Below are positions 10,307-28,481 of a stretch of DNA of 64,000 bases, piece by piece. Below the pieces are notes generated by a model that was not told the origin of the DNA, ran no database searches, and saw only the letters and a list, made by a program, of their open reading frames with translations. The DNA comes from Lojkania enalia (lineage: Eukaryota > Ascomycota > Dothideomycetes > Pleosporales), in assembly GCA_010094045.1 (NCBI GenBank), contig ML986612.1:266440-330439 (forward strand), written 5' to 3'. The position numbers were made by a program, and so were the translations under genes. Position 1 is the first letter of the stretch, and each line of letters opens with the position of its first letter.

Positions 10307-12296
10307 TCAAAGCTTGGCTCGGCGCTGGAGGTATAGGCGGATGCCGATGGCGACTGCGATTCGTTAGTAATTTGTGCGTTGAATAAAAGTGAGTTATGTA
10401 GCATGAGGATAAATGGAATGCAATGCACGAATAAAGAAACAGTACAACAGAATGACGCGGGTAATTGGGCGGGAAGTAGGAGGGACCGAGACTTGATAGC
10501 GATTTGAAAAGCGACCGGGTAACGAAAATGGCAGGAAACTGAACCAACACTAATGTGCGGAGTAAATAGGCCTGCGAGCAAAAACTGCAATTTGCATAAT
10601 AAGGGTGAATGGATAGCAAGAACTCATTCAACATGACATGCACAAGCATGCTATGACTTACCAACAACGGCCACCACACTCTTCAGCCCAATTAATCCTT
10701 GCATCCACGTCCACCACCCCAGCGTTCGACCCTCTCGATCAAAATTCGGCTTCAGTGCACTCATACCAACGAACTTCTTCTGCTTCTTCGCCGTGTACGG
10801 CGGATACCTAACATCTAGCATGCCCTCAATCCAAGCCGGTGTCGTAGTAACAGAGCGACAGTGTGTAAAGACGTCGAAGGAAGCCTTGCCGCGATATGCA
10901 CCTTGGCCAGAGGATCCAACACCGCCGAACGCCAAGGTCGGGATACTGGCGTGGAAAAAGCCGTCGTTCAGGGAGGCGCCACCGGAGCGCGTCTGTGAGA
11001 GCACTTTCTCCATCTCTTGTTTGTTACCGAAGGAGTAGACGCCAAGGGGTGTATCGTGAACTTCGTTAGCGATCTTGATGGCTTCGTCTAGGTCTGTGAC
11101 GGGAAGGATGGGTAGGAGGGGGCCGAAGCTTTCCTCCTTGATAAGGCTATCATCCATATTTTCTACTTGGATGACAGTAGGTTCAATGAAGAGGTCCCTT
11201 TCGTCCATGCTCCCGCCAAGCACGATCTTGCCATTTGATTCGTCTACCATCTTTTTCAGCCTCTGGAATTGTCTCAGATTCACGATCCTCCCGTAATCGG
11301 GAGATTTTTTGGGACCCTGGGGATAGAATTCCTCTAGCGCATTTTTCATCTCTTTCAAAAATGATGGTACAATCTCCCTATCGATGAGTGTAAAGTTCTG
11401 CGATACGCACACCTGTCCAGCATTCAGCGTCTTCGCCCAAAGTAGCCTCCTAGCGGCAAGTTTCGGGTCTGCATGTTTTGTGATGATCGCGGGGTTCTTG
11501 CCACCGAGCTCTAGAGTGACTGGTGTCAAAGTCTCTGCCGCCTTCTTTGCAATTATAGTGCCAACATTGACAGACCCGGTATAAAATATCTTATCCCACT
11601 TTTGATCCAAGAGAGCCGTTGTCTCGGGGATTGCGCCCTGAATGATAGCGTAGCAGGAGGGGTCGAGAGACTCTGCGACGACCTTCTGGAGTACGGCAGA
11701 AGCATTGGGCGCGTTTTCGGACGGCTTCAAGACTGCGGTACATCCTGCTGCAATTGCGCCGATCATGGGACCAAGCGATAGCTGGATAGGGAAGTTATAT
11801 GCTCTGGATACCCCATAATGTCAGTATTGAAATGGAAGTAACGACTAAGCGATCAAGGAGCATACCCGATAATCAGAACCGTACCATAAGGGTCCTTCCT
11901 AATCCTAGGTCCAAAGAACTTGTTTGTGAAGGCAATGTCAGGAGCCGGCTCATCCTTTGCAAATCGCGCGAGGTTCTTGGTCATGAAAACGATGTCATTC
12001 ATGCACCAGCTAGTCTCAGTGAGGTATGTCTCGAACTGAGACTTTCCGAGATCTTTCTTGCATGCTTCGACGATGAGGTCTTGGTTGTCATTGAGCCTGA
12101 TGGCCTCGAGTGAGCTATGCGGCACGGATCAGTAGAAGCAAAAGCTTCAGACCTACCCCCAATATAGTTTCCGCAGCTGGGTGATGCGGAACTCGAGTGG
12201 TCTAGTCTTGTGCGAGAGGAAGCTGGCGCGAATTTGGTTGACGGTAGGGAGGATGCCGTCGATGGGCGTATGCTCAAATGGGGGTAGGGCGGACAT
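10307..12296 (-). CDS. Membrane-anchored aldehyde dehydrogenase (YLO-1/fatty-aldehyde type)
   Basis: Four exons read leftwards: 12296-12157, 12114-11866, 11803-10662, 10353-10307; total 1578 nt, 525 residues. NAD(P)-dependent ALDH superfamily: KPSENAP (Lys about 156), FYTGSVNVG, LELGGKNP (general base Glu about 228) and NAGQVCVSQ (nucleophile Cys about 262). It is closest in pattern to fungal beta-apo-4'-carotenal oxygenase/fatty aldehyde dehydrogenases, which oxidise long-chain or apocarotenoid aldehydes. The last exon is only 47 nt, after a 308 bp intron. It completes a hydrophobic tail of about 15 residues starting at GLKSVVAVV and ending in a basic cap (LQRRAKL), a C-terminal membrane anchor known in this subgroup. 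Without this exon the frame would stop two codons past the donor site. The donor ACTTAC (reverse strand) at 10656-10661 is consensus. Confidence 0.9.
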
Positions 12297-12913
12297 GGTG
12301 GCTAGCTGCGAAGCTGGGAATTAGTAAATGGAGAGACCTCCAAGGAATGCAGCGAGGCTATGTCGTTCTGGAAGAACACAGCAAAATGGAGGTGCGTCTG
12401 AGGATAGATATGTGTAAATACACATGAGTACCAAGTGGGGTTTGACGGCTCCAGAGCTCTACGAGGGCTGCAACCGCCTGACTCCTCACGGGCACGCCTC
12501 TGCCTCGGTCCCTGCCGGCCCAACTCCGGCCCCGCACAGGTACCCCCGAAGAGGGAAAGCGCCAACGGCTGAATGCTTCCTCAACTCCGTTCATGGCTCG
12601 TGATAATTTGACCGATTCTAACATCATCGTATTCACACGTAAGACTTGTTCCGGCTATGTCGCTGGTTCTTGGTCGCGCTTAGTTTGAACATCTTTACCC
12701 TTTTGAGCTGAAGCGCCAAACTCCCTGGCATTGTTATGTTTCCTTTTCGGGTTAAACAGGCAAACATGAATTGCGTTTCATCTGGGCTTGCATTCTACAT
12801 CTCCTTGGCATGCCATCTAATCAGTCTCTCTGCTCTGCCCTGGTTCCCTATTTCCTTCCTGTCTGCTTAACTAAACCATAGCATGTCCCGCCGAAAGCTA
12901 TACTGGCCTAGCA
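12297..12913. promoter_or_regulatory. Upstream region of ALDH and 3' flank of the MFS gene
   Basis: Both neighbours are read leftwards, so this stretch is the ALDH promoter plus the MFS 3' UTR. A GTGGGGTTT motif lies at about 12435, roughly 140 bp upstream of the ALDH start; it resembles G-rich motifs in other promoters of this block. Minus-strand ORFs at 12302-12636 have no family match. Confidence 0.4.
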
Positions 12914-13854
12914 TTAAATCACATACCTGAAGTCTGGCTCCCGATCCGTATACATTGTTGCTTGGTCCCTCACGTACCCTTCAGCAAGCTTCCTATCCTT
13001 ACCAGCCTCCCTCTTCTTGTAGATCGACCGCACAATCCACCATCCACACCAAGCAAACACAAGACATCCCAAACTCCACCCGTGGCCAAGGTAGAAGTGC
13101 GGCGCAGTCTTACTCTGATAAATCTGCCCACTAACTACGCCACCAATGTTGGTAAGGGTGAGGAGTATACCGAGCGACGCTGCTCTTTTGCCGTCTGGCG
13201 CACAGTTCCCGGATAGCCACGTGATATTTCCGCCCGTGCAAAGGAAGCAAGCGGTTGAGATTAGGTATGTGGCGAAGTACCTGACACCGACTGGCACCGG
13301 CGAGATCACGATTGCGTAGCCGACCGCGCCAATAGGCGCCATCATGACGAGTGGCCAGAATCGAGTTCGGTAGCGGTCGGACAGGTAGGCGCCTACGGCG
13401 TAGACAATAGCGCCCCAGATGTTGACGGGGATCACGAGATATTGCGCCTATACGTCTTAGTCTCAATATAATCTTTGGCAAGGACTTATTTCAACCAACG
13501 GAGACATCAATGAACTCACCTGGACAGTCGAATACTGGAACCCGTCTTTGATAATGATCGGTAGGAACGTTCCAAAGCCATATAAGATGGTAACAACAGC
13601 GATCTGAATTAAGCCATGCGCCCAACTCTTTACATCTCTAGCGGCTTCCTTGATATCAGCCATTCCGTAGTGACCCTGACCTCCTGAGTACGCCTCCGTA
13701 CGTTCTGCGCGCTGCCGCATAATTGCTTTTTCTTCCGCGTTTAGAAAATAGGCGGTTTCATAGTTCTTTGGAACAAGGTAGATGCAGCATGCCGCCCAGA
13801 CAACGGTTATGCAGCCTTCAATAATATACAGCCTGCACTCAACGTCAGTTTTCG

Positions 13855-13885
<31 letters not shown>

Positions 13886-14636
13886 TCAAAATAACAAGGA
13901 CAGGAAGAAACGCAATCAGAAGAAAATTGAGAGAGAAATTGTCCACTTACCACCGCCACCCCGCCCATCCAGCAGCACCATCCATGTACAAAATTGCCCA
14001 TGCAATCAGGCCCCCAAAGGCTCCCGACAAAGCACTCGCAATAAACAGATACGCTACTCTTACACCTAACTCTTCTCTCGTGTACCAATTGCACAAGAAT
14101 AGCGTCATGGATGGGAACAGGCATCCTTCAAAGAACCCGAGGAAGATACGCGTTGTCACGAGACCTGCAAAGTTCTGCACAAAGCCAGTGCACAGGCAGA
14201 CGATTCCCCAGCAGAAAGTTATGGTAGGGATGACGCGGTTAAATTGCAGGCGTTTTACCAGCAGGGACGTTGGGAACTAATTATCGTTAACATGCAGAAC
14301 TTGATACTGATAGGACAAATACCATACCTCAGCAAGGATATAAAAGATATAAAACACAGACACCGAGGTGTTAAGCTGTGATCCCTCGAGATTAATATCA
14401 TCCGTCATCCCCTGTGTAGCCGCAAACCCGATATTCCCACGATCAAGGTAGGATATCAACATCAGCATCATCATGACGGGAGCAACGAAGCAATCCAATT
14501 TCCTAACGAGCTTCGCTTCTTTAGTCCTAGCTTCGATGACCGATGGCGATTCATCTTGTTCAAAGTACTCGCGCTGGACCTGACTCTGTTTTTCGTCGGC
14601 CAGGGAAGGCATTTCGTTATTATGGACGTATGCCAT
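12914..14636 (-). CDS. MFS transporter, DAL5/allantoate-permease (anion:cation symporter) family
   Basis: Four exons read leftwards: 14636-14328, 14276-13951, 13832-13520, 13447-12914; 1482 nt, 493 residues. Hallmarks of the fungal ACS family (Dal5, nicotinate/vitamin and organic-anion permeases) are present: cytosolic N-terminus, TM1 with ISYLDRGNIGFA, RIFLGFFEGCLFPS after TM4, WYTREELGVR, and the C-terminal FRYVI ending. About 12 membrane segments are visible and length is normal for the family. Such carriers import carboxylates, ureides or vitamins by proton symport at the plasma membrane; the substrate cannot be named. The intron between exons 2 and 3 carries a 27-A homopolymer. It is divergent from the dehydrogenase gene at 15370, sharing a 733 bp intergenic region, which fits co-regulation with a catabolic block. 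Confidence 0.92.
13855..13881. repeat. Poly(A) homopolymer in an MFS intron
   Basis: Run of about 27 A on the plus strand (poly-T in the transcript) inside the MFS intron 13833-13950, between the donor side and the acceptor TGCAG. On the transcript it would form a long polypyrimidine stretch near the 3' splice site. Confidence 0.9.
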
Positions 14637-15369
14637 AACGAGGTAACGAATCGATGGAATGGACGCGATGAGGAAGGTAGGGATTTGAATGGAAAGATGT
14701 ATTTAGAGCTCTCCAAGTCTCATTTTTCTATCCATGCCTATCTGATATGTAGCCCCCGGCGAGATAGCCAACTAACTAGCTTTTGCTCCAAGAGCGGGGA
14801 TTAGCGCGTTGGAAAACCTGGGGTTAGCACCACGGGAACAAGAATAAGTATCAGGAGATCTAAATAGGATCAGCAGAGTTATTTCCGGTTTTTCGCTAAT
14901 GTATGAGCGCCGAACGGTTTTGAGGCGATTAGCAGCGGTTCGGAGATGGTGGATTATTGGGCAGTGGCGGCCAAGACAACGTCACAATAGCGAGGCGGGC
15001 TAGAGGTTAGCGCCCTCCAACCACAAGATTTGGAGATTGCGGAGAAATGCGCTAGATTAGGTTGGAGTTGAGGGTACTCCAAATGCGGGGCCTCGGTATG
15101 GGAAATGAGGGGTCGGTTGTCGGAAACCACAAAAGGTTCGGTCGAGATATTGCCTCTAAGTTGACACATTCGGTAAGAGCTCGCCGTGACGTAAAAGAGG
15201 CGAGTATTGAGTTAGGGTATTGCCTTAAGTTTTTGTCAGGGATCGTATGATGGACGTATGCTGTCCGAAGTTGTGAGAAACTGAGGTTTGTCTATCCATC
15301 TTCGAGTTTGCGCGCGAGCCGACAGTGGACAAATTGAGCAATTTCCGTTACCTTTAACGAGACGAAACT
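14637..15369. promoter_or_regulatory. Divergent promoter region, MFS transporter / HIBADH-like gene
   Basis: 733 bp between two divergent genes. GCGGGG motifs occur at 14794-14799 (GCGGGGATTAG) and 15085-15090 (GCGGGGCCTCGG), and an AGGGG at about 15108. Similar cores recur in promoters across the block. No convincing ORF; 15062-15250 is short and featureless. Confidence 0.5.
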
Positions 15370-16455
15370 ATGGCTTCACCAGATAAGATGGTGGCCTTTA
15401 TTGGTATGTTAGTTTTGCAATCACCAAAGTCTGGACTAACAATTTACCATAGGCTTGGGAGTGATGGGCTACCCGATGGCCCTCAACCTCCGAAAAGGCC
15501 TCGATGTCTCGCATACACTCCTGGTATGCGACGTTGTGCCCGACGCAATATCGCGGTTTCAGCAAGACAGCAAAGGAAAAGGACCAGTAGAAGTCATTAA
15601 AAGCGGATATGAAGCGGTCCAGAAAGCTGTACGACTTTAGTCACTCACTAATATGCTTAAATTCTAGTTAACTCAGGTGTATAGAACATAGTAATCACTA
15701 TGCTTCCCGACTCCAACGCCGTCAGAAAAGTCTACCTCGACCCGTCTAACGGCATCCTTGCCGGCGCTGAAGCTGCTATTAGAGCCTCACCGCAAAACAA
15801 AATCATCATGGAATGCGGAACAATCGAGACAGCTACAATCCTCGACGTCGCGAAAACAACGAGTGAATGCAGTGTCGCTTCGTTGCTCACATTTGTTGAT
15901 GCGCCAGTATCAGGCGGTCCGATGGGCGCACAGGACGGAACGCTGACGTTCATGGTCGGTACTAATAATAAAGATGTGTTTCCCACTGTCAAGAGCATAC
16001 TAGGGCACATGGGTAAGGAAGACAGTGTGTTCCTCTGCGGCGATGTGGGTGCCGGAACAGCCTTCAAGGTTATTAACAACTATCTTTCTGCCATTACATC
16101 ACTAGCCGCATCCGAAGCACTCAACATTGGCACGAAGATGGGACTTGATGTTAAACTGCTTACAGACGTGATCAATGTTAGCGGTGGTCAGTGCTGGGTT
16201 ACAAGTAAAAGCAATCCGGTGCCCGGCGTGCAGCCAAATGTACCGAGCTCAAGGGGTTATGAAGGAGGTTTCAGGATTGAGCTTTGTGAAAAGGTGTTGA
16301 AGATGGGTAGTGACCTTGCCGAGATGGTTGGCGCGAGGACAATTCTTGATAAGCCGACGCTGGAAGCTTTTGCTGAGGCGAAGAATGATCCTAGGTATAA
16401 GGGGAAGGATGCGAGAGTTGTATATAAGTGGTTGAATGAAAGTGAGAGGAAGTAG
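15370..16455 (+). CDS. 3-hydroxyisobutyrate dehydrogenase-like (beta-hydroxyacid dehydrogenase), copy 1
   Basis: Three exons: 15370-15403, 15453-15628, 15685-16455; 981 nt, 326 residues. NAD(P)-dependent beta-hydroxyacid dehydrogenase family (6-phosphogluconate dehydrogenase-like). The Rossmann motif FIGLGVMG is split by the first intron; DAPVSGGPMGAQDGTL (about 143-158) is the substrate-binding block; GTAFKVINNYLS holds the catalytic Lys at about residue 198. Length is that of mitochondrial HIBADH without an obvious targeting peptide, so it is probably cytosolic. Family members oxidise 3-hydroxyisobutyrate, tartronate semialdehyde or related 3-hydroxy acids; substrate here unknown. The second donor is a weaker GTACGA, but it alone preserves the frame into NIVITMLP. 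Divergent from the MFS permease; a diverged relative lies at 19508. Confidence 0.9.
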
Positions 16456-16704
16456 GGGCATAGATAACTGAATTGAAACAGTTGTATCTCATGAGCATGG
16501 AACCTAGTCTGAATGCGCTATACAACATATTATTTGGGATCTGTAGCATATACTATGTGCTTATCAAGATATTTCCGTGAAACGGGCCATCATCTTTATC
16601 AGGTTTCAAATCAGTATAATTGTTTACATATATGACATACCATAGCAAGAAATTCAAAATAATACTACATTAATTCTTTGAGACAGCTAGAGGGCTTATT
16701 TCAA

Positions 16705-17601
16705 TTATGCTTGTCCGGAATTCGTCAACTCCTGCTCTAGAATCGGCAGTCCTACATCCATGGTACTAATCGACAATAATGTCGCCAACTCTAGCACTTC
16801 CATGATCTCCTCCGGCGTTCCTCCATAGCCGAGCACATTCTTCATATGTAACTTCAATCCCGGTTGGTAAAGGTGTGTTGCTGCAGCGTCAAAAGCGCAA
16901 TAAATTAGTTCCTTAACCTATTGATTCGTTAGCACATTCATCCCACACTAGCCACGGGAGAATGGAGGCTATACTTTTGGCTCCAACACCCCTCTCCCCC
17001 CTTCATTCGTCCAAGGCACCGAACTAAATTCCACATACGCCCCAAAAAACTCTGGACTCAGCCTCAAAAAATCCTCCCAAAAGGCATGCCAATAGCCTCT
17101 CTTCTTCTCAAAATCTTCTTTCAGCTTCCACTGCTGCTCACTCATGCCTTCCATCCCCTTCGGCAGCTCCCTGCCTTCTTCTCTTAGGACCTCGAAGAGG
17201 ATGGGGACGCCAATGTTGCACGCGTGGATCCCCAGCGTACTCGTCAAGCACAAAACTTCTACTATTTCTGCCTTGCTCGCGCCATTTGCTAGTGCCTGCC
17301 GCGTGTAGCGGTGGATATTAGGTATGTGAAGATGCGTCGATGCGGCGGATACGGCCAGCGACACCAAACTCTGTATCTTAGGCGACAAACGCCCCTTCTT
17401 CTTTGGGACATTCATCATCCGTAGACTTGCTGCAAACATCTCTGGAGAATGTTTTAGGAGCCTTGACCATAATTCGTCGAAGGCGTTGGCGCCGAGTTCG
17501 GCGTCGAATCGCTCTTTTAGTTGTTGTTGTTCGTCTGTGAGGGACATTTCTGTAGGGGTGGAAAGAATCGTGTATGCTGGGGGGCGGGAGGCCATTCTCA
17601 T
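16705..17601 (-). CDS. Carboxymuconolactone decarboxylase-family protein, two AhpD-like repeats
   Basis: Two exons read leftwards: 17601-16975 and 16917-16705; 840 nt, 279 residues. The intron (CTATAC on the plus strand marks the donor) removes an in-frame stop after LEPK and joins to KELIYCAFDAAATHLY. Each half carries a CMD/AhpD-like helical unit: half 1 has SLVSLAVSAASTHLHIPNIHRYTRQALANGASKAEIVEVL (shown here only as landmarks: SLVSLAVSAASTH and SKAEIVEVL); half 2 has LIYCAFDAAATHL and TPEEIMEVLELATLL. The N-terminal part of each half repeats a short motif (HSPEMFAAS / LSPEFFGAYVEF), showing internal duplication. The AhpD CxxC pair is absent, so it is not a classic alkylhydroperoxidase. 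Function within the block is unknown; decarboxylase or hydratase-like activity on a ring-fission acid is a guess. A second upstream ATG lies nearby, so the exact start is uncertain. Confidence 0.82.
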
Positions 17602-17999
17602 AGTACGGATGTATAGTAATGGGGGTACGGGCCGGCTCGATTGGGAATAGTGGCTTGGTAGTCAATGTGGTGCTGTATTTCGTAAAGCTTGAGGATCCAG
17701 CGTGGTTGCGCTCTGTTGCGAATCACGATGTTGGAGATGGGCAGTACGGATTGATTGGTGGAAAGATGCCCCACATTCCCCAAGTGGGCCGGGAGAAGAC
17801 GCGGGGTTAAATAACGAGAGGCACACGAGTATATTTGCCAATACTAGTATAAGATCGAGAACATAAGGGCTCGAGGATTTTGCAGTATGTAGTCATATTT
17901 AAGGCATTGTTAAGCGCGTGAAGAAAAGTAAATCAAAGGCCGTTACGCTGAACGCCGTGAGCCAAATACATGAGAAGAAGTCGACCGAGACTGAGTCGC
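17602..17999. promoter_or_regulatory. Upstream region of the two-repeat CMD gene
   Basis: About 400 bp between two leftward genes. CCCCAC at 17769-17774 and GCGGGGTTAA at 17801-17810 lie 170-200 bp upstream of the CMD start. Short ORFs here are not supported. Confidence 0.45.
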
Positions 18000-19071
18000 T
18001 TATAAACTACATCCTTTTGACTGTTCTGCACCGAAAAATCGACCCTTGTTCGCAGGCATACTCTCCCATTCCACATCGTGCGCGAATATAATTTCAACTC
18101 CTCCCCTCTCTAGCTCGCGAATTCGAGCAATAGTTTCCTCGGCGCCTTTCTTATCTGCATGTATGCAGCAAGTATGCCCCTCAGCATCATGCCATTCGCC
18201 TATTTCCTTCTCGCCGGTCAATAACCGCCTATCATGGCAGGCATCGCCGGCCATATAGACTTGATTACTGTCGGAAACTCTCGCTAGTATGTTGATATGA
18301 CCTGGCAAGTGGCCTGGCGCATCGACGATGAGAAGAGAGCCATCATTGAATAGATCCAGTGTGTGAGGTAGATGCCTATATGGCCGCCATGATTGCTTAA
18401 AATTGATGATACCCCACTGTTGGTTCATGACTGAAGAAGCATGCGCTTGTGATCCAGATGTTGGATCTGATAATTCCAAAGTGCGACCATTAGGGAGAAG
18501 ATCGCACTCGAAAAACGAGTGCCCTCCCCGAAGGGATGAAGATGTACCGTCAAGCAGCGCTAGTGTTCCATGACCGACAACGAAGGTGGAGTTTGGAAAA
18601 TCCCGGGGTTCTCCTATATGATCCCAATGCACCTATGATCCATCATACTTAGTTTCTCCGTGAATATTTCGGAGGGAGCAGGATATTTGAACATACATGA
18701 GAGTAGATGACATAGTCAATATTGTCCGGAGTCAATCCGCCCTTTGCCAGACTCTTGACTACGTCAGGATCTGTTGTCATAGGCTGCCGGGTGGTAACAT
18801 GCTTCTGTATTGGCTCTGAATATCTCTTAATGTTCCTTCTTACTCCTAAATCGAACACTATTCTTGTTATTTGGCCATTATCGATATTTCGATGTTCGAT
18901 GAGGAATCCAAGTGAGGGTACAGACTTCCGCGCCTCTTGAGAGATTGGGTGGACAAATTGATATTCAGGAAGTGTGAAATGGCCACAGGAGAGCGCATGC
19001 ACCGATACAGTTGCATGTTCCAAGGGTGGAGAGGGGGGTCCACTTTGTCTAACGAAAACCGATGAAGACAT
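18000..19071 (-). CDS. Metallo-beta-lactamase-fold hydrolase (lactonase-like), copy 1
   Basis: Two exons read leftwards: 19071-18697 and 18632-18000; 1008 nt, 335 residues. The intron sits inside the zinc-binding motif and joins ...YSH to VHWDH, giving HVHWDH at about residues 125-130. Further zinc ligands follow in DAPGHLPGHIN (His) and MAGDACHD (Asp), then FAHDVEW near the end. This is the pattern of N-acyl-homoserine-lactonase-like MBL proteins, which hydrolyse lactone rings or esters with two metal ions. The start MSSSVFVR was preferred because its position matches the paralogue at 25938; an upstream in-frame Met would add 36 residues without family support. The paralogue shows the same landmarks (HLTLPE/HFTLPE, RQP, GGL). 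No signal peptide. Substrate unknown. Confidence 0.9.
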
Positions 19072-19507
19072 AACAGGCTCACTGAGAGTTTTCGTAAGAA
19101 AGCAATGGAAAGTATAGAACACTAAGGAAGGCAGGTGGAAGCAAACATCATCAAGGTTGCAATCTGAGGCTGGAGACAATCAACCCGGGACTCTTGGCAT
19201 GGGGAAACATAATAACAGGGACGTACGCTTCGGTGTTTAAACCCACCTTTTTGGGGTAAGCCAGGGTGGTGTCGGGGCGTGCGATGGCGAATTTGTCTTA
19301 TACCCCACCCCAGCCAAGCGTGGAAACTAGTGTGGGGTGGAATTGGAGTTCGCTCCGACGGCCTGGATCGGTCTGCGATTGCCGACCAAGTTAATCGGAA
19401 AGGTAAATGTTTCGCTGCTTCCTGCCCGACTCTAGGAACTCTCGTATCTGCATCTTCTCTACGAGCAAGCTGTTGCAAATCGGCTTCGAAACACGATAAG
19501 GCGCACA
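19072..19507. promoter_or_regulatory. Divergent promoter region with clustered G/C-box motifs
   Basis: 436 bp between the leftward MBL hydrolase and the rightward HIBADH-like gene. Several four-G/C cores lie within about 90 bp: GGGGTAA at 19253-19259, TCGGGGCG at about 19272, TACCCCACCCCAG at 19301-19313 and GTGGGGTGG at 19332-19340. This is the densest such group seen in the window and is a candidate operator for a C2H2 regulator. Confidence 0.55.
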
Positions 19508-20531
19508 ATGAGCGAGGCTTTTGATTTTAAGACGGTTGGCTTTATCGGCCTTGGGGCAATGGGTAAGCCTATGCTGGTTCATCTGGCGAATAAGCTCCCA
19601 TCGGAATCGCAACTATACGTCTTCGATGTAGTCGAGCAGGTAGTGGACGAGCTCCGTACGAAATTTCCAAATAGGGTATTGAAAGCAAGCAGCGCGCGAG
19701 ACGTAGCCCAACAGACGGTGGGTAGTTTATATACTTAATCATGGTAGAAGAACGCTGAAGAACGAACAGGAAACGATAATAACAATGGTTCCGGAAGGCT
19801 CACATGTGCGATCAGTCTACCTTGACCCGCAAAAAGGCGTCTGTAGTACCGATATCTCGAACAAGCTCCTCATCGATTGTTCGACGATAGATACCGCAAC
19901 TAGTCTTGCCGTAAAGGATTACATTGCTGAAAATTTCCCATCTGCGTCTTTTTATGACTCGCCTGTCAGCGGAGGGGTAGTTGGAGCGGTTAAAGGCACA
20001 ATTGCGTTCTTTCTTGGATGCGCAGAGTGGGACCCAAATGTGAAGCGGCTAACACATTTGATGAGCCTGATGGGAAAACAAATCATCCCATGTGGAGGTC
20101 CGTCGCTTGGCCTTGCCGCGAAGCTTTCGAATAATTATCTTTCGGGAGTCATCGCAATTGCTTGTTCGGAAGCCATGGACATGGGCATGCGGTCTGGACT
20201 AGACCCACGCACTCTTGCAAAGGTCTATGCAGCTGGGACTGCGCAGAATACAATCTGCGACAGGTTCAATCCTGTACCGCACGTCTATCCTGAAGCACCG
20301 TCTTCGAAGGGTTACAAAGAGGGGTTCAAGGTTCAGCTCATGCGGAAGGACTTTGCTCTAGCCGTAGACATGGCGAAGAGAGTCGGTTCGAAGAATGTAT
20401 TAGGAGGAGTCGGCTTGGAGACATATGATGGTGCAAGCAAAGACCCTCGGTGTCGAGATCTAGATTCTCGTGTAGTTTACCGTTATCTCGGCGGCCAGGA
20501 GGATTGGCAGTCCCATGTGAATGGTTCATAG
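19508..20531 (+). CDS. 3-hydroxyisobutyrate dehydrogenase-like, copy 2
   Basis: Two exons: 19508-19717 and 19770-20531; 972 nt, 323 residues. Same family as the gene at 15370: GFIGLGAMGKPM Rossmann motif, DSPVSGGVVGAVKGTI substrate-binding block, AAKLSNNYLSG with the catalytic Lys at about residue 188. The intron before ETIITMVPEG lies at the same place (after codon 70) as intron 2 of copy 1, before NIVITMLPD, so both descend from one gene. Similarity by eye is moderate, so duplication is old and substrates may differ. NAD(P)-dependent oxidation of a 3-hydroxy acid or reduction of the semialdehyde is expected. No targeting peptide seen. Confidence 0.9.
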
Positions 20532-20849
20532 ACGTATTCTAAACCCATATTTGCATGAACACTGGAAAAAGCTTCAACCCGATATCCAGGAATATGTGAT
20601 TCTTTGCTCAAGTGCAAAGTAGCGTTGGGGAAGTTTGGGGAAAGAGGGGTATCCCCAACACCGACGTCGGCGACCCACATGGAGGGGCAGAGAAAGTTCA
20701 ACGCATCTGAGCTCGTACCGGATCCCAATCATTAAGACTTCGTCGAACACTCTTCTTCTTGCCTGAATTCAATTCAAGCGGTTACCTCCCTACTCCAGGC
20801 GCATCCACTGACCCGAGACACGATTTTCCACCAATCAGCGACGCCTGCC
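20532..20849. promoter_or_regulatory. Promoter region of the PcaC-like gene
   Basis: 318 bp between co-oriented genes. GGGGTATCCCC (20646-20656) forms facing GGGG/CCCC half-sites, about 195-205 bp upstream of the PcaC-like start; another TTGGGGA lies at about 20633. Confidence 0.5.
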
Positions 20850-21302
20850 ATGTCTTCCGACCCCAAATACGATGACCTCCACAAGCAGCTCTTCGAAGAG
20901 GGCCTGAAGGTGCGACGCAGCGTGGTGGGCAACGAATATGTCGACCGCGCACTGGCCAACGGTTCCACAGAGTTCTCTCGGGCAGGCCAGGAGATAGTCA
21001 CAGAGTGGTGCTGGGGCTATGCGTGGACGCGGCCAGGACTGTCCAAGCAGCAACGCAGTCTCCTTAATATCGGCATGCTCATGGCACTCAATCGCGCTCC
21101 CGAGCTTGCTGTACACATCCGAGGGGCAAGAAACAATGGTCTGTCGGAGCTCGAGATCCGTGAAGCTATCATCCACGCGACTACATACTGCGGGGTCCCG
21201 GCGGGCGTGGACGCAATGAAAACGGCAGAGAAGGTGCTCAATGACATGGCCGAGAAGGGAGAAATGCCACGGGAGCTCGGAAACAAGAGCGACAAGGCAT
21301 AG
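20850..21302 (+). CDS. 4-carboxymuconolactone decarboxylase (PcaC-like)
   Basis: Intronless, 150 residues. It has the full landmark set of bacterial-type gamma-carboxymuconolactone decarboxylase (EC 4.1.1.44, PcaC): [64 protein letters not shown] and [14 protein letters not shown]. Length equals a stand-alone PcaC. In bacteria PcaC converts 4-carboxymuconolactone to 3-oxoadipate enol-lactone in protocatechuate breakdown. Ascomycete fungi normally use the 3-carboxymuconate branch, which does not need this enzyme, so a related lactone or another ring-fission acid is more likely as substrate. Neighbours (MBL hydrolases that could act on an enol-lactone) fit a lactone-handling route. The reaction itself is inferred from family. 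Confidence 0.88.
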
Positions 21303-21795
21303 GCGTTCAGCGTGAGGTTCAAGGGAAGAGGACGGTCAGGTGGTTATACGACCGCGTCGCGTCGCGAGATGCACGAATCAGGATGCAGCAGCCTACAACT
21401 ACCAAGGAAGAAATGCCCCACAAATACATATTCAGCACTCAACACCGTCAATATATCTCGCCAAAACATTGCAATAGACCTCAATTTCTCGCAGATGTGT
21501 TCAATTGAATTGTTTCCATGACGCATGCCACTGATCTGCACCAGCTGCCAAGCCACGCCGTCGGTTGGTGGCGTCCCCGGAAGGCGTCCCCACATGTGAC
21601 ACCGTCTCATCTCCGCAGTTTTCAACCGTCTCTCCGCACTCTTCCCATACATCATCTCCAAATTTGCAGTTCCTTTCTCAGCTAACCGTTACTCCAAAAC
21701 TCGTACGATCTACTCACGCTGTTCCAACCTCCTGGGCCCTAGTCTAACCAATGACGGTCTGAGACCTAACCAGTGCTAAGCCCAACCAGCTCCTT
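21303..21795. promoter_or_regulatory. Upstream region of the C2H2 regulator
   Basis: 493 bp between co-oriented genes. ORFs on both strands (21344-21661 minus, 21565-21747 plus) look non-coding. No distinct G-box cluster was seen here. Confidence 0.4.
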
Positions 21796-24463
21796 ATGGA
21801 GTCGAGCGTGAGCAGCACTGAGCAAGCAGCTCCCCCAAAGAAGGAGAAAAGGTTTCAATGTCAGCACTGTCAACGCCTATTTGCGCGCCTTGAACATCTT
21901 CAACGCCACGAGCGTATCCGTAAGCCCTCTGCTACATGTCTATGAGTGACGCCTAATATGGCAGTAGATAGCGGCATCAAGCCATTTAGCTGTTCCGAAT
22001 GCAATTATTCGTTCACTCGAAGGTATGAAGGCAGCTGCATAGGCACAAGGCAGCGCTAAGACTGGCAGTGATCTTCTTGTTCGACACGAACGTCTTACCC
22101 ACCACAAGGAGAACGGCCAGAGGAACCATCAAAGTCCTCCTGCTAACTATGTGCCTGCAGAATCTAGGCCGACGAAGCGCATGCGTTCTAGCTTCGATGG
22201 CGGAAAGCCTGTGCCGGAAATTCCCAGTATGATGTCGACTTCTGCTCCCTCAGTCAATGTAGAGATGGCGAACCCTACCTTACACCAGACCCCAACGCCG
22301 GCCGGTCCTCTTTCTACGCCTCAAAACGATGAGTTTTCACTTGCTGCACTCTCCATGGCAGCTGAATATCAGGCTCTACAAGGAACAATGAGTAACGGCG
22401 TCACTTCCCATCATGACCATCAGAACTCGATCCCTATCCAGGATCAGAGCATCACAAGAACCATTGAGCAGCCGTCCATGGTCCCTGCACCACCTACTCA
22501 GCTACATGGACCAAGTTTAGGGGAGTCATTGGATAGCCTTGCTGCTTTTCTCGACAATGAGCCTCTTTCTTCCTACCACTTCGCGTCTTTGCTCAACACG
22601 GAACAGCCAATGCCATTTTTCTCTCCTGAGTCCTTTAGTTATGGGCATGATATGAATCCATCGTCAGATAATCATACAAATGAGAGCCATAACCACGGAC
22701 AACAACCCGTTGAAGAGCCTGGCTCAATATCTCGCTTTGGCTCGCGCCTTCCATCTCTGCAGCCAGAGGACCTGACACAACACAAAGTACAAGGCCACCG
22801 GTACCTAGCAGAGATATCTATTGACGACCGGCAAAGGATTATGGACAAGCTAGGTGAATTTCTGACTGTAGTGTCGTCGGATTTCCGACTTCCAACGCGG
22901 TTGGCCTTATGCCGATATATCACCGCATACATCAATGGCTTCCATGAGCATATGCCATTCCTACATATTCCAACAATGTCAGTCGACAGCTGCTCTATTG
23001 AACTTCTTTTAGCGATTGCTGCTGTTGGCGCACAATATACTTTTGAGGGAGAGAAAGGTGTGGAGCTGTTCAATGCAAGTCGTGCAATCGCTACATATCG
23101 AATTCGGCGAAGAGACGCTCGTCTCGTAGAGTCACATCATCGCGAAGAGTCTGAACGCTCTTCTTCTCGCGATAACGATAACGTATCATTTACACGAAGT
23201 CCGCGGGCTAGCTCAATTGTTGGACCACTTGGACTTCCTCCAGAATCTGAAACATCGCCAATTGGAGAGGATCTCATGCAGACTGCACAGGCTTTACTTC
23301 TGCTCATGGCTCTATGCACATGGGCTAAACATAAGGAGATCCTCCGTGAAGCGCTTGCTATCCAGAGCATTCTTGCTACATTAATTCGGGATGATGGGCT
23401 GCATAGCGAACCTTTGCACGATGACTTGTCATGGTATAATTGGATCCGGCGTGAGACCACGAAGAGAACAAAATTCATTGTTTATGGATTCTCTAACCTG
23501 CACTGCATAGTCTACAACATTCCGCCTTTTCTGCTTACCAGCGAGGTCAAATTAACATTACCGTGCAGTGCTGCGCAATTCAAGGCCCCAACGGAAGCAG
23601 CTTGGAAGGAAGCGAAAAAGAAGAGTCCCCCCGAAATCCAATTTCAGGATGCTATTCAAAGGCTATTTTCAAAGAATGGTCGCGATATTACAGAATGGAA
23701 CTCGAGTGCAGGGAATTATGCCCTGATCCACGCACTGATTCAGCATATATTTTTCCTACGCCAAGTCACGAGATGTCGCTTTGATGGGCCAGGGGAGCTC
23801 AGTTCTGAGGACGTGGCATCACTAGAAAATGCCCTGAGGAACTGGCAAATTGGGTGGAAACACAACCCAGAATCCTCCCTCGATCCAATGAGTCCAAACG
23901 GACCAGTAGCCTTCAACTCTACGGCTCTCCTACGTTTAGCCTATATAAGACTTTACGTAGATACCGCCGGTCGAGCTTTGGATACCCGTGATCCTGCTCT
24001 GATTGCAAATGCTTTTCGGGATGGTCCAGCAATCAAGCGATCCTCCAAAATCACAAGGGCTGTACTTCACTCGGCCCATGCACTCAGTATCCCTGTCAAG
24101 ATTGGTTATCGGCTTGTTGCAAAAACGCAGTCGTTCATCTGGTCTATCCAACATTCGCTTTGCACCTTGGAATGTGCGTATCTCATGAGCAAGTGGCTTG
24201 AAGCGTTATCTGTTCCGAATCCAGAACCTCCTGTTACCGAAGACGAACGGCGAATAACATCCATTGTTAAGAGCATGCTGGATGAGACTGAGTTTGCCGT
24301 TCCTGCTGGTATTCCTGCGGAATCCCCCGCATATACCAAATATTTAAGCGCAGGCGTGCTGAGAGTTTGGGCTACAATTTTCAAAGGCGCACAAACATGG
24401 GCTATTGTAGATGTCATAGGTAGCGCACTGAACCTTTACGCCGACATGGTGGAAGCAGGATGA
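21796..24463 (+). CDS. C2H2 zinc-finger transcription factor with fungal_trans domain
   Basis: Three exons: 21796-21919, 21968-22022, 22069-24463; 2574 nt, 857 residues. Two C2H2 fingers sit at the N-terminus: CQHCQRLFARLEHLQRHERIH and CSECNYSFTRSDLLVRHERLTHH (both spaced C-x2-C-x12-H-x3/4-H), separated by the classic H-S-G-I-K-P-F linker. The linker is rebuilt exactly by the first splice. A basic patch (RPTKRMR) follows and may be a nuclear signal. From about residue 250 the protein matches the fungal-specific transcription factor domain (PF04082): RYITAYINGFHEHMPFLHIPT, then WNWIRRE-type WYNWIRRETTKRTKFIVYGF. Finger-plus-fungal_trans factors often control the gene block they lie in. Its stop is only 45 bp from the stop of the convergent ADH gene. 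Confidence 0.92.
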
Positions 24464-24508
24464 ACACATGTTGGGAACGGAATGAAATTGAAGGAGCTTT
24501 TTGCTAGC

Positions 24509-25648
24509 TCAAGCTTCTTGGGACATGTCTATGACCAACTTTCCGCCTCCACCCTTGTGGTACTCCTCCACAAGTACATTCAGTTTCGAGAGTGGAAACG
24601 ATCTCGTGATAGCGCGGATATTATGCTCGGCCGAGAAATTTAGCATCTCCCGCAATATCCTATTGCTTCCGACAAGACTCCCTATAATAGAAATGTCGCG
24701 AAACACCACATCCCGAGCTGAAATGTGAAAACCCTTCTCTGGAAACGAGACTACGACGCACTTTCCGTGGTTCTTAAGGAGCTGCATACCGTAGTCGAAC
24801 GCCTGCTGGCTCTCTGGTAGAATGATAACAGCGTCGAGGCCCATTTCAAGAACATCGCTTTTGCCGTCTTCAGCCCCAAGCTGTTGAACGATGTCAGCAG
24901 CCTTCTCCGCCCTTGCGTCCACAATCCGTGCACCAGTTTTCAAATCGTTTGCAAGTTTCAACGGCCCTTCAGCTGCATCTACCCCCAGAACTTTGTAACC
25001 CATCTTGACAGCATACTGCAACCCCAGATGTCCCAAGCCGCCTCCACAACCCATTATACCCACTCTATCACTAGGTTCCAATTCACATCTCTTGAGAGCA
25101 GCATATATCGTTATACCAGCGCACATGAGCGGCGCCGTTTCGACAGCACTCAATGAAGCTGGCATTGGGGCGAGCTGCCTTGCGTCTACAACCGCATACT
25201 CAGCGAATCCTCCGTCTCTGCTTATGCCGTTGTTTTCAGCGTATGAACAATATGCTGAATATCCTTTTTCGTCTCGACTCACAGGGTCTTTCGAGCCTTG
25301 GCATTCGAAGCACGTCTCGCAAGGGTGAAAAGCACGGCCCGGTACTCCAACTTTTTCCCCAGGTCTGAATGCGCTTGCTTGTGAACTGGGTGATTCAGAA
25401 TGCGATACTATGGTGCCCGCAAATTCATGAGATCCGGCATGTGGAAATGACTTAGGAAAGCCGGGCATTTGTCCCTGAGCAAGCACAAAGTCCGTATGGC
25501 AGTAAGAAGCAGCATCAACCTTGATAAGGATATCATTGGGAGCGGCCGGCCTTGGTAGAGGTACTGTGAGGAGATTGTACGGCTTTTTGTAGGCCTGGAG
25601 GAACTGACCTCGCATTGTCTTAGGAAGGTTCGAAGCCATAATAGACAA
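24509..25648 (-). CDS. Zinc-dependent alcohol dehydrogenase (MDR family)
   Basis: Intronless, 379 residues if started at 25648; a second Met four codons in (MASNLPKTMRG) may be the true start. Medium-chain zinc ADH: SYCHTDF with Cys50, GSHEFAG with His74/Glu75 and MCAG with Cys176 around the catalytic zinc; HPCETCFEC and a later YCSY (Cys110, 113, 116, 134) for the structural zinc; NAD-binding GCGGGLGHLG about 200-209. The spacing to the fourth structural Cys is longer than usual. It resembles fungal ADH1-like enzymes and probably oxidises a primary alcohol to the aldehyde, which the ALDH of the block could finish. Divergent from the MBL gene at 25938 over 289 bp; convergent with the regulator, 45 bp apart. 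Confidence 0.92.
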   Translation of the reverse strand: MSIMASNLPKTMRGQFLQAYKKPYNLLTVPLPRPAAPNDILIKVDAASYCHTDFVLAQGQMPGFPKSFPHAGSHEFAGTIVSHSESPSSQASAFRPGEKVGVPGRAFHPCETCFECQGSKDPVSRDEKGYSAYCSYAENNGISRDGGFAEYAVVDARQLAPMPASLSAVETAPLMCAGITIYAALKRCELEPSDRVGIMGCGGGLGHLGLQYAVKMGYKVLGVDAAEGPLKLANDLKTGARIVDARAEKAADIVQQLGAEDGKSDVLEMGLDAVIILPESQQAFDYGMQLLKNHGKCVVVSFPEKGFHISARDVVFRDISIIGSLVGSNRILREMLNFSAEHNIRAITRSFPLSKLNVLVEEYHKGGGGKLVIDMSQEA

Positions 25649-25937
25649 ATGCAGGAGGTATCGAGCGAGCTAGAAGGTAACAGTAACGCTGGTGCGCCCT
25701 TGCATTAGAAAATGTGAAGCAGAGACTCTTGAAACTGGGATGCCGATCCAGAAAGACCCCGCCGCGGGGTAATCCAGCGGAAGTCTGAGTGAAGTGGGGC
25801 TATCCTTTTCCTCAGACCTGAGGCTTCTCCAACTGGTTCTCCAATATACCAGCGCTAACTTTCACCTCGTCGAATGCTTCGAGCATGTAGAATCGTTACT
25901 CTCACCAAAAGGGAATTTACACTCTACTCATTAGCAA
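25649..25937. promoter_or_regulatory. Divergent promoter region, ADH / MBL hydrolase
   Basis: 289 bp shared by two divergent block genes. It contains an inverted repeat of a G-box core (separate entry) and GTGGGGCTA at about 25794. Such a short divergent spacer suggests joint control. Confidence 0.6.
25757..25769. promoter_or_regulatory. Perfect inverted repeat CCCCGC-C-GCGGGG
   Basis: Two 6-bp arms with a 1-bp spacer, followed by TAAT; lies in the ADH/MBL divergent spacer. The half-site GCGGGGTAA resembles GCGGGGTTAA (17801) and TTGGGGTAAG (19251). Candidate binding site for the block's C2H2 regulator; not proven. Confidence 0.5.
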
Positions 25938-26927
25938 TTGTCAAATATGTCATCTCAAGAAGCAGACACGCTTATTCTTCCCGCCCCAGCCTCAAACCAG
26001 ATATATGTAATGATATCCGCTCTTGAAGCCGGGCATCTCACGCTTCCCGAGTGTCTCTTCATAACGGATGCTGACCCTTTAAAACGCACGACAGTCCCAA
26101 CCCTCTCCTTTCTGATCCAACACCCATCATTTCCCAAACCAACAAACCTTATCTTCGATCTCGGCTTGAAACGCGATTTTTCCGGTTACCGCGATGCCCA
26201 ACAGCACCACATTTCCCAGCGCCAACCCACCATTGTCTCCCCAGACGTTTCCAAAAGTCTCCAAAACGGCGGTCTATCGCCCGAAGAAATCGACACCGTG
26301 ATCTTGAGCCACGTGCACTGGGACCATGTCGGAACACCCTCCGATTTCCGCAACGCAGAATTCGTAGTTGGGAGTGGGACCGTGCATCTCCTCGCCCACG
26401 GCAGCGGCCCATTGTACCCTGCCGAGATCTTCAATCCCGACGAATTGCCCAAGGATCGCACGAAAGAGCTCCCGCCCGTCAGGCAAGAAGACGAGGCGAA
26501 AGCTTATCCCCAGCAAACGAGTCACGAATGGAAACCGTTAGCCGCGTTCCCTGCTGTCGTCGATTACTTCGGCGACGGAAGTTTGTATGTTGTTGATGCG
26601 CCAGGGCATCTGTTCGGGCATGTTAATCTGCTCGCGAGAGTCGCGCCACGAAAATGGGTCTATTTGGGTGGAGATTGCTGCCATGATCCGCGGATTTTGA
26701 AGGGGGAGAAGGGAATTGCTATGTACGATGATGGAAGGGGCGGATTGAGGAGCGTACATGTGGATACGGATGAGGCCGCTGGGACGATTAAGAGGATAGG
26801 GAAGCTCTTGAATCAGGGGAAGGTTCGGGAGGAGGGTGGGGAGTCGGTCGAAGTTGAGGTCGTGGTTGCACATGATAAGGCTTGGAGAGAGGCGAATGCT
26901 AGTCGATTTTGGCCAGGCAGGCTATGA
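25938..26927 (+). CDS. Metallo-beta-lactamase-fold hydrolase (lactonase-like), copy 2
   Basis: Intronless, 329 residues, paralogue of the gene at 18000-19071. Zinc motif HVHWDH at residues 125-130; further ligands in DAPGHLFGHVN and LGGDCCHD; VVAHDKAW near the end. The N-terminus (HLTLPECLF, IFDLGLKRDFSGY) and the middle (RQPTIVSPDVSKSLQNGGLS) follow the paralogue closely, but this copy lacks the intron that splits the zinc motif there. Like AHL-lactonase-type MBL proteins it should hydrolyse a lactone or ester. A second Met at codon 4 is an alternative start. No signal peptide. It closes the metabolic block on the right side. Confidence 0.92.
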   Translation: MSNMSSQEADTLILPAPASNQIYVMISALEAGHLTLPECLFITDADPLKRTTVPTLSFLIQHPSFPKPTNLIFDLGLKRDFSGYRDAQQHHISQRQPTIVSPDVSKSLQNGGLSPEEIDTVILSHVHWDHVGTPSDFRNAEFVVGSGTVHLLAHGSGPLYPAEIFNPDELPKDRTKELPPVRQEDEAKAYPQQTSHEWKPLAAFPAVVDYFGDGSLYVVDAPGHLFGHVNLLARVAPRKWVYLGGDCCHDPRILKGEKGIAMYDDGRGGLRSVHVDTDEAAGTIKRIGKLLNQGKVREEGGESVEVEVVVAHDKAWREANASRFWPGRL

Positions 26928-28480
26928 TTGGGATATTGTGTAGAATCATTGAAGTAATAAGTAATAAAAATTGAATAAGAATAGAATTTCATTGTAAGTG
27001 GGAAAAACTCTATGAACGTGAGTAAAACAAATTTGCACCTTTAGAGAGAACCTAGGGTTTGGGGTTCGGGAGAAGGAGCCGTGATTTTAGCATCGGCGTA
27101 CTCGAAATAAGTTCTTATCTACATTAGAAATCATGAAATTAAATATCCTATAGTTCGGGAATATATTCTAAAGTCAGCCAAAGTCAAAATAATGCAAGTA
27201 TTCTAGACGGGCATTCGAGTACCGCCTGACTCGACATATATTGGTTTAAGAGCCCTACTATGAAAGAATAAAGAAGGTATTTAGACGATTAAAAATTATT
27301 GAAGAAGGTAATACCATACGAATACGGGGCGCACTTTAGACATGTAAGTAGTTATAAGACTCTGAAGTTATCGGAATATGTGACGGGTATATTGCAAGAA
27401 GCTCGAGCCGTGAGGCGGCGCGAAGACCGCCTCGTTTTACCAAAGGACAGTCTACGTGTCGAAAATAAAGGCTAAGGTTTGCTAATGCCCTCGGTGTTCC
27501 AATATGCTATTTCGGATTACTTTCCTCCGATTGTGAGTTAGTGGCCTTAGATTCGGTTGGGGCTAAGATGTGGACCTAGGACTGTTCTAAATCGGAAGGT
27601 AGAAGAAAAGGGCATTTAAAGGCTTACACAGAGGTTCAATACTTTTACAAGGTATGATGTAATAGTGAAAACGTATTTCTTTCTAGGAGTCACCTCTAAG
27701 CCGCTATATAATGCGTGGCTGCCTGAACATACGTGTATGATCGAGCTCGCGCGCCTCACTTTTTGGGCTCCATTGTAGCGGCAGTATCTCTCGTTTGGCG
27801 AATTCCGTAAAATGTTCCACTTGTGGGATTTAGTTGTATTCGAGAGTTGGTCGCGGGTTTATGCATAGGACGGACTGACATGCTGATCGTTACTCTATCA
27901 GGTAAAACTTGCCGCGAAGTTTTGTTGCGCCCCAGTAATGACGGAAGGCGCAAGCATCTGGGAGAAGAATTTTAGTACAAGGGAAACAAACAGAGTCGCT
28001 CATCTAGACATGCGATCCAAAGTAAGAAAGGCGCTGAGCCGTGATGCCCTAGACCGTGAAACCCAACTTTACAATAAAGGATCGAAATAGCAGGGAAAGA
28101 AAACTATACCATGAGGATTTAGTAGAGCGGCACTGAAGGAGAACTGCTAGATCAGTTGAAGAGCCTCAGATTCCTTGTGTGTATGCTCGCATGCGCTGGC
28201 AGGATCGGGGTGACAACGATGCGGAGCTGACGTTGGGCATGAGCGCCGCCTCACTTTTTTTCCCTTAACTCTTGAGGGGATTGCAACGCCGGTGAATGTC
28301 TAATGGACATCTGAAAGTGCAAACAGATGATGCAATAGAAGTACAGAATCCAGAGAATGGGAGAAATGTGCAAGGGGTTCTATGCATTTGAGTGGTCGGT
28401 GCGGAAAAGCTACCCGGTCGATTCGGCTACATTTCAACATTTCAGAGGGAAATGTTACGAGACGTTAGACCAAGTTGACC
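26928..28480. other. Gene-poor tract after the metabolic block
   Basis: No ORF with family resemblance. The short frame 27756-27953 (minus) is unsupported. GC-rich words such as GTGAGGCGGCGC (27410) and its reverse complement (28243-28254) occur, but the match is short enough to be chance. Confidence 0.5.
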
Positions 28481-28481
28481 G

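Follow-up and report, generated by a model that had tools for sequence, protein, structure and literature searches.

The window analysed here is a 64,000-nucleotide stretch of the Lojkania enalia genome (C35:266440-330439, contig ML986612.1 of the 58.1-Mb assembly of this pleosporalean ascomycete), which contains ten adjacent genes designated ALDH, MFS, HIB1, CMD1, MBL1, HIB2, CMD2, the regulator, ADH, and MBL2 (Table 1). All ten were modelled, and each matches the Pfam family named for it in an earlier sequence-only reading of the window: Aldedh, MFS_1, NAD_binding_2 with NAD_binding_11 (two genes), CMD (two genes), Lactamase_B (two genes), ADH_N with ADH_zinc_N, and zf-C2H2 with Fungal_trans. 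As expected of a fungal catabolic cluster, adjacent genes of one apparent pathway lie together with a transporter and a regulator, and the locus is a real catabolic-type gene cluster that has its own regulator, is linked in several genera, and looks co-regulated. A probability of approximately 0.6 is given to the reading that all of these genes except ALDH form a nine-gene catabolic regulon under their own Adr1-type regulator, judging from the sequence evidence described below.

Gene content of the locus

The coordinates of the earlier reading were revised in part. The ten-gene set begins at 10651, not at 10307, because the ALDH frame ends at 10651. Two of the three divergent spacers are exactly as given before (MFS/HIB1, 733 bp; MBL1/HIB2, 436 bp), but the ADH/MBL2 spacer is 307 bp when ATG starts are used, the figure of 289 bp having come from open reading frames with TTG starts. 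The MBL2 model is identical to the database protein, the database CMD1 of L. enalia starts 18 residues later than the model (100% identity), and the database ALDH has 507 amino acids against 513 modelled here (99% identity). The second MFS intron contains 27 consecutive A (T on the coding strand) at 13855-13881.

Table 1. Genes and promoter-bearing spacers of the cluster, with positions counted from the first nucleotide of the window.
Feature	Position	Strand	Domains and details
ALDH, class-3-type aldehyde dehydrogenase, relative of fungal hexadecenal/fatty aldehyde dehydrogenases	10651..12296	-	PF00171
MFS organic-anion transporter	12914..14636	-	PF07690; introns 13448-13519, 13833-13950, 14277-14327
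MFS/HIB1 divergent promoter	14637..15369	.	six TTGGRG; CTCCAA-N9-TTGGAG at 15015, TTGGAG-N9-CTCCAA at 15062
HIB1, 3-hydroxyisobutyrate-dehydrogenase (HIBADH)-like beta-hydroxyacid dehydrogenase	15370..16455	+	PF03446+PF14833; introns 15404-15452, 15629-15684
CMD1, two-domain carboxymuconolactone-decarboxylase-like enzyme	16705..17601	-	PF02627, two stretches
CMD1 upstream spacer	17602..17999	.	two TTGGRG (17731, 17778)
MBL1, lactonase-like metallo-hydrolase	18000..19071	-	PF00753; 46% identical to MBL2, HxHxDH kept
MBL1/HIB2 divergent promoter	19072..19507	.	two TTGGRG (19251, 19343)
HIB2, second HIBADH-like dehydrogenase	19508..20531	+	PF03446+PF14833; 39% identical to HIB1
CMD2 promoter	20532..20849	.	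three TTGGRG, including TTGGGG-N12-CCCCAA at 20635
CMD2, PcaC-like single-domain CMD enzyme, intronless	20850..21302	+	PF02627
Regulator promoter	21303..21795	.	two TTGGRG (21656, 21692)
C2H2 zinc-finger/Fungal_trans regulator, two Adr1-matching fingers	21796..24463	+	PF00096, PF04082
ADH, zinc-dependent alcohol dehydrogenase, intronless	24509..25639	-	PF08240+PF00107
ADH/MBL2 divergent promoter	25640..25946	.	two TTGGRG (25827, 25839)
MBL2, lactonase-like metallo-hydrolase, intronless	25947..26927	+	PF00753

Domain scans of the cluster and its flanking frames bear out the claim that polyketide synthase, nonribosomal peptide synthetase (NRPS), P450, and ring dioxygenase genes are absent. None of these domains was found by Pfam scan in the ten genes or in the 32 stop-to-stop frames of at least 130 amino acids outside the cluster in the window, with NRPS not covered by a genome-wide search. 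Whole-genome searches returned no ketoacyl synthase (71/71 candidates scored) and no intradiol dioxygenase (matches confined to contigs C74, C45, C41, and C6) on the contig of the cluster, and one P450 on it, 57 kb beyond the window (92/220 candidates scored). At C41:12003-13404, intradiol-dioxygenase matches lie approximately 0.6 kb from another CMD-family match, and this site is probably an aromatic-degradation locus of L. enalia. No tRNA or Rfam match was found within the window.

No further member of the MBL1/MBL2 subfamily was found in the genome; a genome search with MBL1 returned itself (492.6 bits, one exon), MBL2 (239.9 bits), and a next best match of 47.5 bits. Four CMD-family matches were found in the genome, two of them in the cluster. 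HIB1 and HIB2 are, by comparison of match scores, probably not the main enzyme of the valine pathway, because the best HIBADH match of the genome lies outside the cluster on C183 (251.1 bits). Elsewhere, at C2:578141-591243, a weak MBL1 relative (39.7 bits) and a HIBADH-like gene lie approximately 12 kb apart; the latter groups with HIB2 (83% by the Shimodaira-Hasegawa-like approximate likelihood ratio test, SH-aLRT), and the site may be a second locus of this kind that has diverged.

Comparison with models of characterised proteins gave 184.2 bits for MFS with TIGR00893 (cut-off 395; "DAL5-like" was the label of the earlier reading), 233.6 bits for HIB1 and 220.8 bits for HIB2 with TIGR01692 (cut-off 291.6), and 149.9 bits for ADH with NF006940 AdhP (cut-off 344), with alcohol dehydrogenase structures matched at up to 170.1 bits. 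ALDH matches class 3 aldehyde dehydrogenase structures (3sza, 368.6 bits), and the fungal hexadecenal/fatty aldehyde dehydrogenase to which it is related is Hfd1. Catabolic gene clusters are a known kind, and the composition of this one is without a published pathway or cluster in the literature searched; in searches for this or a similar set, no account of this gene set was found among the titles and abstract openings listed, in agreement with the earlier reading, which knew of no described cluster with this exact set.

Promoter motif, extent of the unit, and linkage in other fungi

The regulator combines two C2H2 fingers with Fungal_trans, and the structures that it matches include ADR1 (2adr, 59.6 bits) alongside many other C2H2 proteins. 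The Adr1 consensus is given as TTGGRG in the available text of two articles (PMC3897899; PMC2536678). Both elements, Adr1-like fingers and TTGGRG sites in the predicted target promoters, are present at the cluster. The seven promoter-bearing spacers contain 18 TTGGRG sites in 3,302 bp, compared with a mean of 4.23 in shuffled sequence, and none of 500 dinucleotide shuffles reached this number. All nine genes from MFS to MBL2 have two to four sites within 400 bp upstream, where genes flanking one divergent spacer share sites in the per-gene counts, and 28 control promoters (400 bp) of the same genome have zero or one each. In an unselected test of six cluster spacers against 200 kb of the same genome, TTGGAG ranked first of 1,454 hexamers (Poisson p = 4e-7), and in an earlier scan of 400-bp upstream regions CTCCAA ranked sixth. 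The MFS/HIB1 promoter has two inverted site pairs with gaps of 9 bp. The Adr1-type C2H2 regulator of the cluster thus looks to control the nine genes via the predicted TTGGRG sites, and the motif provides a direct handle on the regulator, the predicted sites, and the nine-gene boundary.

The nine genes from MFS to MBL2 (12914-26927) probably make up the functional unit, and the earlier inclusion of ALDH as a dedicated member did not hold. ALDH is probably a conserved neighbour and not a core member, because it belongs to a widespread fatty-aldehyde family, is on another contig in six of 26 species, and has an ordinary promoter with one TTGGRG in the 400 bp upstream, as in the controls. Its relatives are partly named hexadecenal or fatty aldehyde dehydrogenase, and the rows listed come from Dothideomycetes, some Leotiomycetes, and lichen fungi. 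Among the matches listed, ALDH and MBL2 are on one contig in 20 of the 26 comparable named species by hand count, leaving out the window as well as Parastagonospora nodorum and Alternaria alternata, which are present in several strains. Many of these common contigs are megabase-sized and thus do not demonstrate adjacency; in Plenodomus lindquistii, one of the 20, the two locus tags are 214 apart. The six species with separate contigs are Massarina, Byssothecium, Decorospora, Bimuria, Plenodomus tracheiphilus, and Paraphaeosphaeria minitans, and in Decorospora MBL2 and CMD1 are still together with ALDH elsewhere. ALDH may still have a supporting role, since an ALDH accompanies 22 of 80 bacterial loci described in the next section.

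Linkage in other fungi was read from matching contig sizes and locus tags in protein-search tables that give the best 120 of 681 MBL2 matches and the best 120 of 2,923 CMD1 matches; each protein cluster is represented by its longest contig, and MBL2-CMD1 matching was done by script. Among the matches listed, 16 contig sizes, one of them that of the window's own contig and all at least 20 kb, are common to MBL2 and CMD1, and none of those under 20 kb (48 and 52 entries) is. The two proteins share a contig in eight of the ten other species named in both tables (Kalmusia, Aaosphaeria, Decorospora, Alternaria panax, Paraconiothyrium, a Mollisiaceae species, Delitschia, and Acephala); for the remaining two, Parastagonospora nodorum and Exserohilum turcica/turcicum, the rows come from different strains or assemblies and are not comparable. 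Seven further contigs are common to both proteins in these tables, six of them 22-92 kb. The locus tags of MBL2 and CMD1 are 5, 6, and 6 apart in N0V90_004150/004155 (Kalmusia), SLS60_001779/001785, and EG329_010659/010653, respectively, and the spacing in the window is also six genes. Of the synteny that the sequence-only reading had proposed as a check, contig linkage is kept across genera for MBL2 and CMD1 and in part for ALDH. Some database names in the tables are crossed (P0088, P0227), the MBL2 relative of Alternaria panax being called 3-hydroxyisobutyrate dehydrogenase and the CMD1 relative of Neofusicoccum parvum beta-lactamase-like, which could stem from fused models of adjacent genes.

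A bacterial operon of the same enzyme families

The sequence-only reading overlooked a bacterial counterpart: many bacteria have an operon made up of these enzyme families. CMD1 matches PDB entry 2q0t from Burkholderia xenovorans (Bxe_B0980; encoded by Paraburkholderia xenovorans LB400) with 243 bits, and its model superposes on this structure with a Foldseek template modelling (TM) score of 0.85 and 45% identity. A scan of bacterial genomes with the CMD1 family gave 140 stretches, of which the best 80 were studied with up to 10 kb on each side, and CMD1 is 46-54% identical to these 80 relatives. An MBL hydrolase is present in 78 of the 80 loci (77 with HxHxDH), HIBADH in 73, cupin in 70, and CMD2, counted by tblastn, in 59; MBL, HIBADH, and CMD2 occur together in 58. 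Clustering of the open reading frames showed a short-chain dehydrogenase/reductase (SDR) in 62 loci (59 with the motif), an MFS transporter in 29, and an ALDH in 22; its counts for GntR (66) and CMD2 (62) were inflated by out-of-frame ORFs and set aside. The gene order HIB-CMD2-HIB-CMD1 was found in 37 loci, and two HIBADHs are present in 60/80 when any two separate matches are counted and in 28/80 when matches of at least 220 amino acids are counted. HIBADH, CMD1, CMD2, MBL, and cupin genes were all absent from 20 control regions of 20 kb each in eight of these genomes, and HIBADH-family matches number 5-16 per genome in ten of them.

Like the fungal cluster, the bacterial operon (e.g., L010, L034, L065, and L072) combines CMD1 and CMD2 of the same groups with HIBADH and MBL, and part of the loci also have an MFS importer and an ALDH. 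In L034 and L072, an MBL, two HIBADHs, ALDH, CMD2, MFS, cupin, and CMD1 form one run that is nearly the fungal set, with gene names assigned mostly by eye and domains checked on samples. The operon differs from the fungal cluster in its HIBADH and MBL subfamilies and, in some loci, in a GntR-type regulator recognised by eye, whereas the zinc ADH and the C2H2 regulator are members of the fungal cluster that are not regular in the operon. In Alicyclobacillus suci (L014:3476-13510), genes of the MmgE/PrpD and phosphoenolpyruvate-mutase/isocitrate-lyase families (Pfam) lie directly before CMD2-CMD1-HIBADH-ALDH, and a CoA-transferase and an HMG-CoA-lyase-like gene were recognised by eye in the same stretch; these neighbours are a possible hint at downstream chemistry. 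In addition, a gene like L017:6101-7063 accompanies the operon in 17/80 loci, and one tested member is DUF6282.

The trees, which were built by a quick method with SH-aLRT as the only support and rooted for drawing, separate shared from replaced parts. CMD1 of the fungal cluster is orthologous to the CMD1 of the bacterial operon by search and tree, with the fungal proteins in a single group separate from the bacterial ones (99% SH-aLRT; 38 fungal and 49 bacterial rows, every second locus). Fungal CMD2 falls on the side of the operon CMD2 and, on this short alignment, counts as its orthologue, with eight PcaC-type genes apart (97% SH-aLRT); one of these eight, L109, scores under the PcaC cut-off of 155.7. 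HIB1 and HIB2 group with ordinary HIBADHs, apart from all 51 sampled operon HIBADHs (100% SH-aLRT). No strong relative of MBL1 or MBL2 was found in 197 genomes from the class of one actinobacterial host (best 36.6 bits), and the fungal MBL gave weak tblastn matches of 43-61 bits in some of the 80 loci. By these comparisons, the CMD pair is common to fungi and bacteria and the HIBADHs are of different lineage, and the lactonases of the two are probably different lineages doing the same kind of job. A recent transfer of the whole operon from bacteria was rejected, as the HIBs group elsewhere, MBL has no close relative in the 197 genomes searched, and fungal CMD1 is a separate group. Since the CMD pairs group together, the HIBADHs belong with ordinary HIBADHs, and the lactonases have no close relative in the actinomycete genomes searched, it looks as if these activities were brought together separately in the fungal cluster, with a CMD pair of old common descent at its centre.

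Proposed pathway and alternative explanations

For the lactonase step, structure adds to family membership. The AlphaFold model of MBL2 (predicted local distance difference test 89.1) has N-acyl homoserine lactone (AHL) lactonases and 4-pyridoxolactonase as its closest structures (TM approximately 0.6, 14-20% identity), with phosphotriesterase-like members further down the ranking, and its HxHxDH motif and later His/Asp positions are invariant in 37 homologues and kept in MBL1; the model supports lactone hydrolysis by MBL2. HIBADH-family enzymes oxidise beta-hydroxy acids, and HIB1 and HIB2 both keep D(A/S)PVSGG and the KxxNN stretch, which we take to be catalytic elements of this family. PcaC, which CMD2 resembles, is a decarboxylase acting on carboxymuconolactone.

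In the proposed mechanism, the regulator would switch on the nine-gene catabolic regulon through the TTGGRG sites, and MFS would take up an organic acid with a lactone form. Opening of the lactone rings would fall to MBL1 and MBL2; HIB1, HIB2, and ADH would then use NAD(P) to oxidise hydroxymethyl groups or secondary hydroxyls; the resulting oxo acid would be decarboxylated or isomerised by CMD2 with the help of CMD1, as happens to carboxymuconolactone with PcaC; and a general aldehyde dehydrogenase, possibly the neighbouring ALDH, would clear the aldehyde. The uptake, lactone hydrolysis, oxidation, and decarboxylation suggested earlier thus fit the families, and only ALDH as a dedicated member falls away. 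On a wider scale, there is roughly an even chance that these genes encode one undescribed catabolic pathway for a lactone-forming hydroxy acid in soil bacteria and filamentous fungi, in which the two CMDs go back to an ancient common core and fungi supplied the lactonase and dehydrogenase steps on their own, a convergent assembly under an Adr1-type local regulator.

Several observations weigh against the nine-gene regulon. TTGGRG was tried since the fingers looked Adr1-like and CTCCAA had already been seen by eye; other patterns were tried as well, and GTGGGG is also weakly enriched. Six of seven other promoters in the window (500 bp) have no TTGGRG, and the seventh, of an S58 peptidase gene, has four. 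The fungal linkage is demonstrated for MBL2, CMD1, and partly ALDH, with the genes between inferred from locus-tag spacing, and CMD1 is absent among the matches listed (best 120 of 2,923) for several near relatives strong in MBL2 (e.g., Lindgomyces, Zopfia, Lophiotrema, and Clohesyomyces), which makes the set patchy in fungi; CMD1 may have been lost there. The bacterial operons also contain a cupin and an SDR, neither of which is present in the fungal cluster, their MBL is of another subfamily, and one bacterial HIB type carries a different motif, DAGISGG. The CMD2 tree is built on few alignment columns and shows long branches, and the PcaC cut-off is exceeded by one operon CMD2 (157.1 bits, in the genome of L015). 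Finally, the CMD fold is also that of AhpD peroxidases; such a role is less likely for CMD1 because no CxxC pair is present in 14 aligned CMD1 proteins.

Among the rivals, detoxification of a xenobiotic or phytochemical, in which a toxic lactone or lactam of plant or bacterial origin is destroyed by the lactonases, leaving its products for the dehydrogenases and CMDs to remove, is unlikely, yet it survives best. The two MBL hydrolases, the lactonase fold of MBL2, and the patchy fungal distribution are consistent with it, as are the Fusarium FDB1 and FDB2 benzoxazolinone clusters, which, in the available text, unite an MBL hydrolase, MFS transporters, and a regulator in one co-induced cluster, genes that are also present here (PMC4726666). 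FDB1 is described there with two amidases, a dienelactone hydrolase, a salicylate hydroxylase, and a Zn2Cys6 regulator; its gene table has no CMD, HIBADH, or ADH, and the main text contains neither "carboxymuconolactone" nor "dehydrogenase" (PMC4726666). Amidase, dienelactone hydrolase, and hydroxylase domains were all missing from the scanned frames of the window, and a benzoxazolinone cluster was rejected on the absence of the first two. The bacterial counterpart, moreover, resembles a nutrient-uptake and oxidation operon, with an MFS or ABC importer in many loci and dehydrogenases, which argues against detoxification.

A variant beta-ketoadipate branch, in which a carboxymuconolactone-like compound is decarboxylated by CMD2 and the enol-lactone hydrolase is an MBL in place of PcaD, is improbable. 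The combination of a CMD with a lactonase echoes the PcaC-PcaD step, and a PcaC-like CMD followed by lactone hydrolysis is shared with the pca pathway. CMD2 gave 132.6 bits with the PcaC model TIGR02425, and, as mentioned, one bacterial operon CMD2 passes its cut-off. However, CMD2 itself is under that cut-off and apart from PcaC in the tree, the contig is without a ring dioxygenase (one intradiol dioxygenase adjoins the CMD match on C41), and the locus has extra dehydrogenases; we know of no role for HIBADHs in the beta-ketoadipate pathway. The pca branch was rejected on the score, the tree, and the missing intradiol dioxygenase. The AttKLM/BlcABC gamma-butyrolactone operon, which consists of an MBL lactonase with alcohol and aldehyde dehydrogenases, has these enzymes in common with the cluster, where CMDs and HIBADHs are extra. 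It was rejected, too, because MBL1 scores 63.7 bits with the AttM lactonase model, far under the cut-off of 390, and ALDH, which is of class 3 type, scores 158.5 against 646 with the succinate-semialdehyde dehydrogenase model. Tropic-acid catabolism was considered for its HIBADH-plus-decarboxylase logic, and no matching cluster was found in the literature retrieved.

It is very unlikely that the genes are the tailoring part of a secondary-metabolite cluster with the MBLs as thioesterases: some fungal polyketide clusters do include MBL and CMD proteins, but the contig has no ketoacyl synthase match, the scanned frames have no biosynthetic core domain, and the structural neighbours of MBL2 are lactonases. 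A chance neighbourhood of unrelated metabolic genes is equally improbable, for although genes of Pleosporales may stay on common large contigs without functional ties, as is maybe the case for ALDH, the common contigs of 22-92 kb, the common promoter motif, and the bacterial operon argue against it.

The proposed nine-gene regulon and its bacterial counterpart bear on a family for which the solved structure 2q0t is still titled "putative": bacteria and fungi give the two-domain CMD1 family the same enzymatic company, and a substrate found in one culturable fungus or bacterium would probably assign the function to both. If the fungal set was indeed assembled separately around the CMD pair, it would be a test case for the formation of metabolic clusters in eukaryotes.

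The flanks of the cluster hold genes of other kinds. To the left, the peptidase family S58 gene (2957-4189, +) has one of its four upstream TTGGRG sites within the nearest 400 bp and might belong to the same regulon. Between it and ALDH lies an ABC transporter gene (5993-9497, +), with membrane and ATPase domains in consecutive frames and no TTGGRG in its promoter. To the right, a gene-poor stretch (approximately 27000-36800) marks the cluster edge with no obvious transposon; the 1.2 kb of 3' flank that was probed is single copy in the genome and has no repeat-induced point mutation signature. Farther right (36823-60605), the genes are ordinary fungal ones and include two RING-finger frames, a WKF-domain gene, a proteasome alpha-subunit-like gene (42759-43865, -), and a fungal rhodopsin-domain frame (60099-60605, +).

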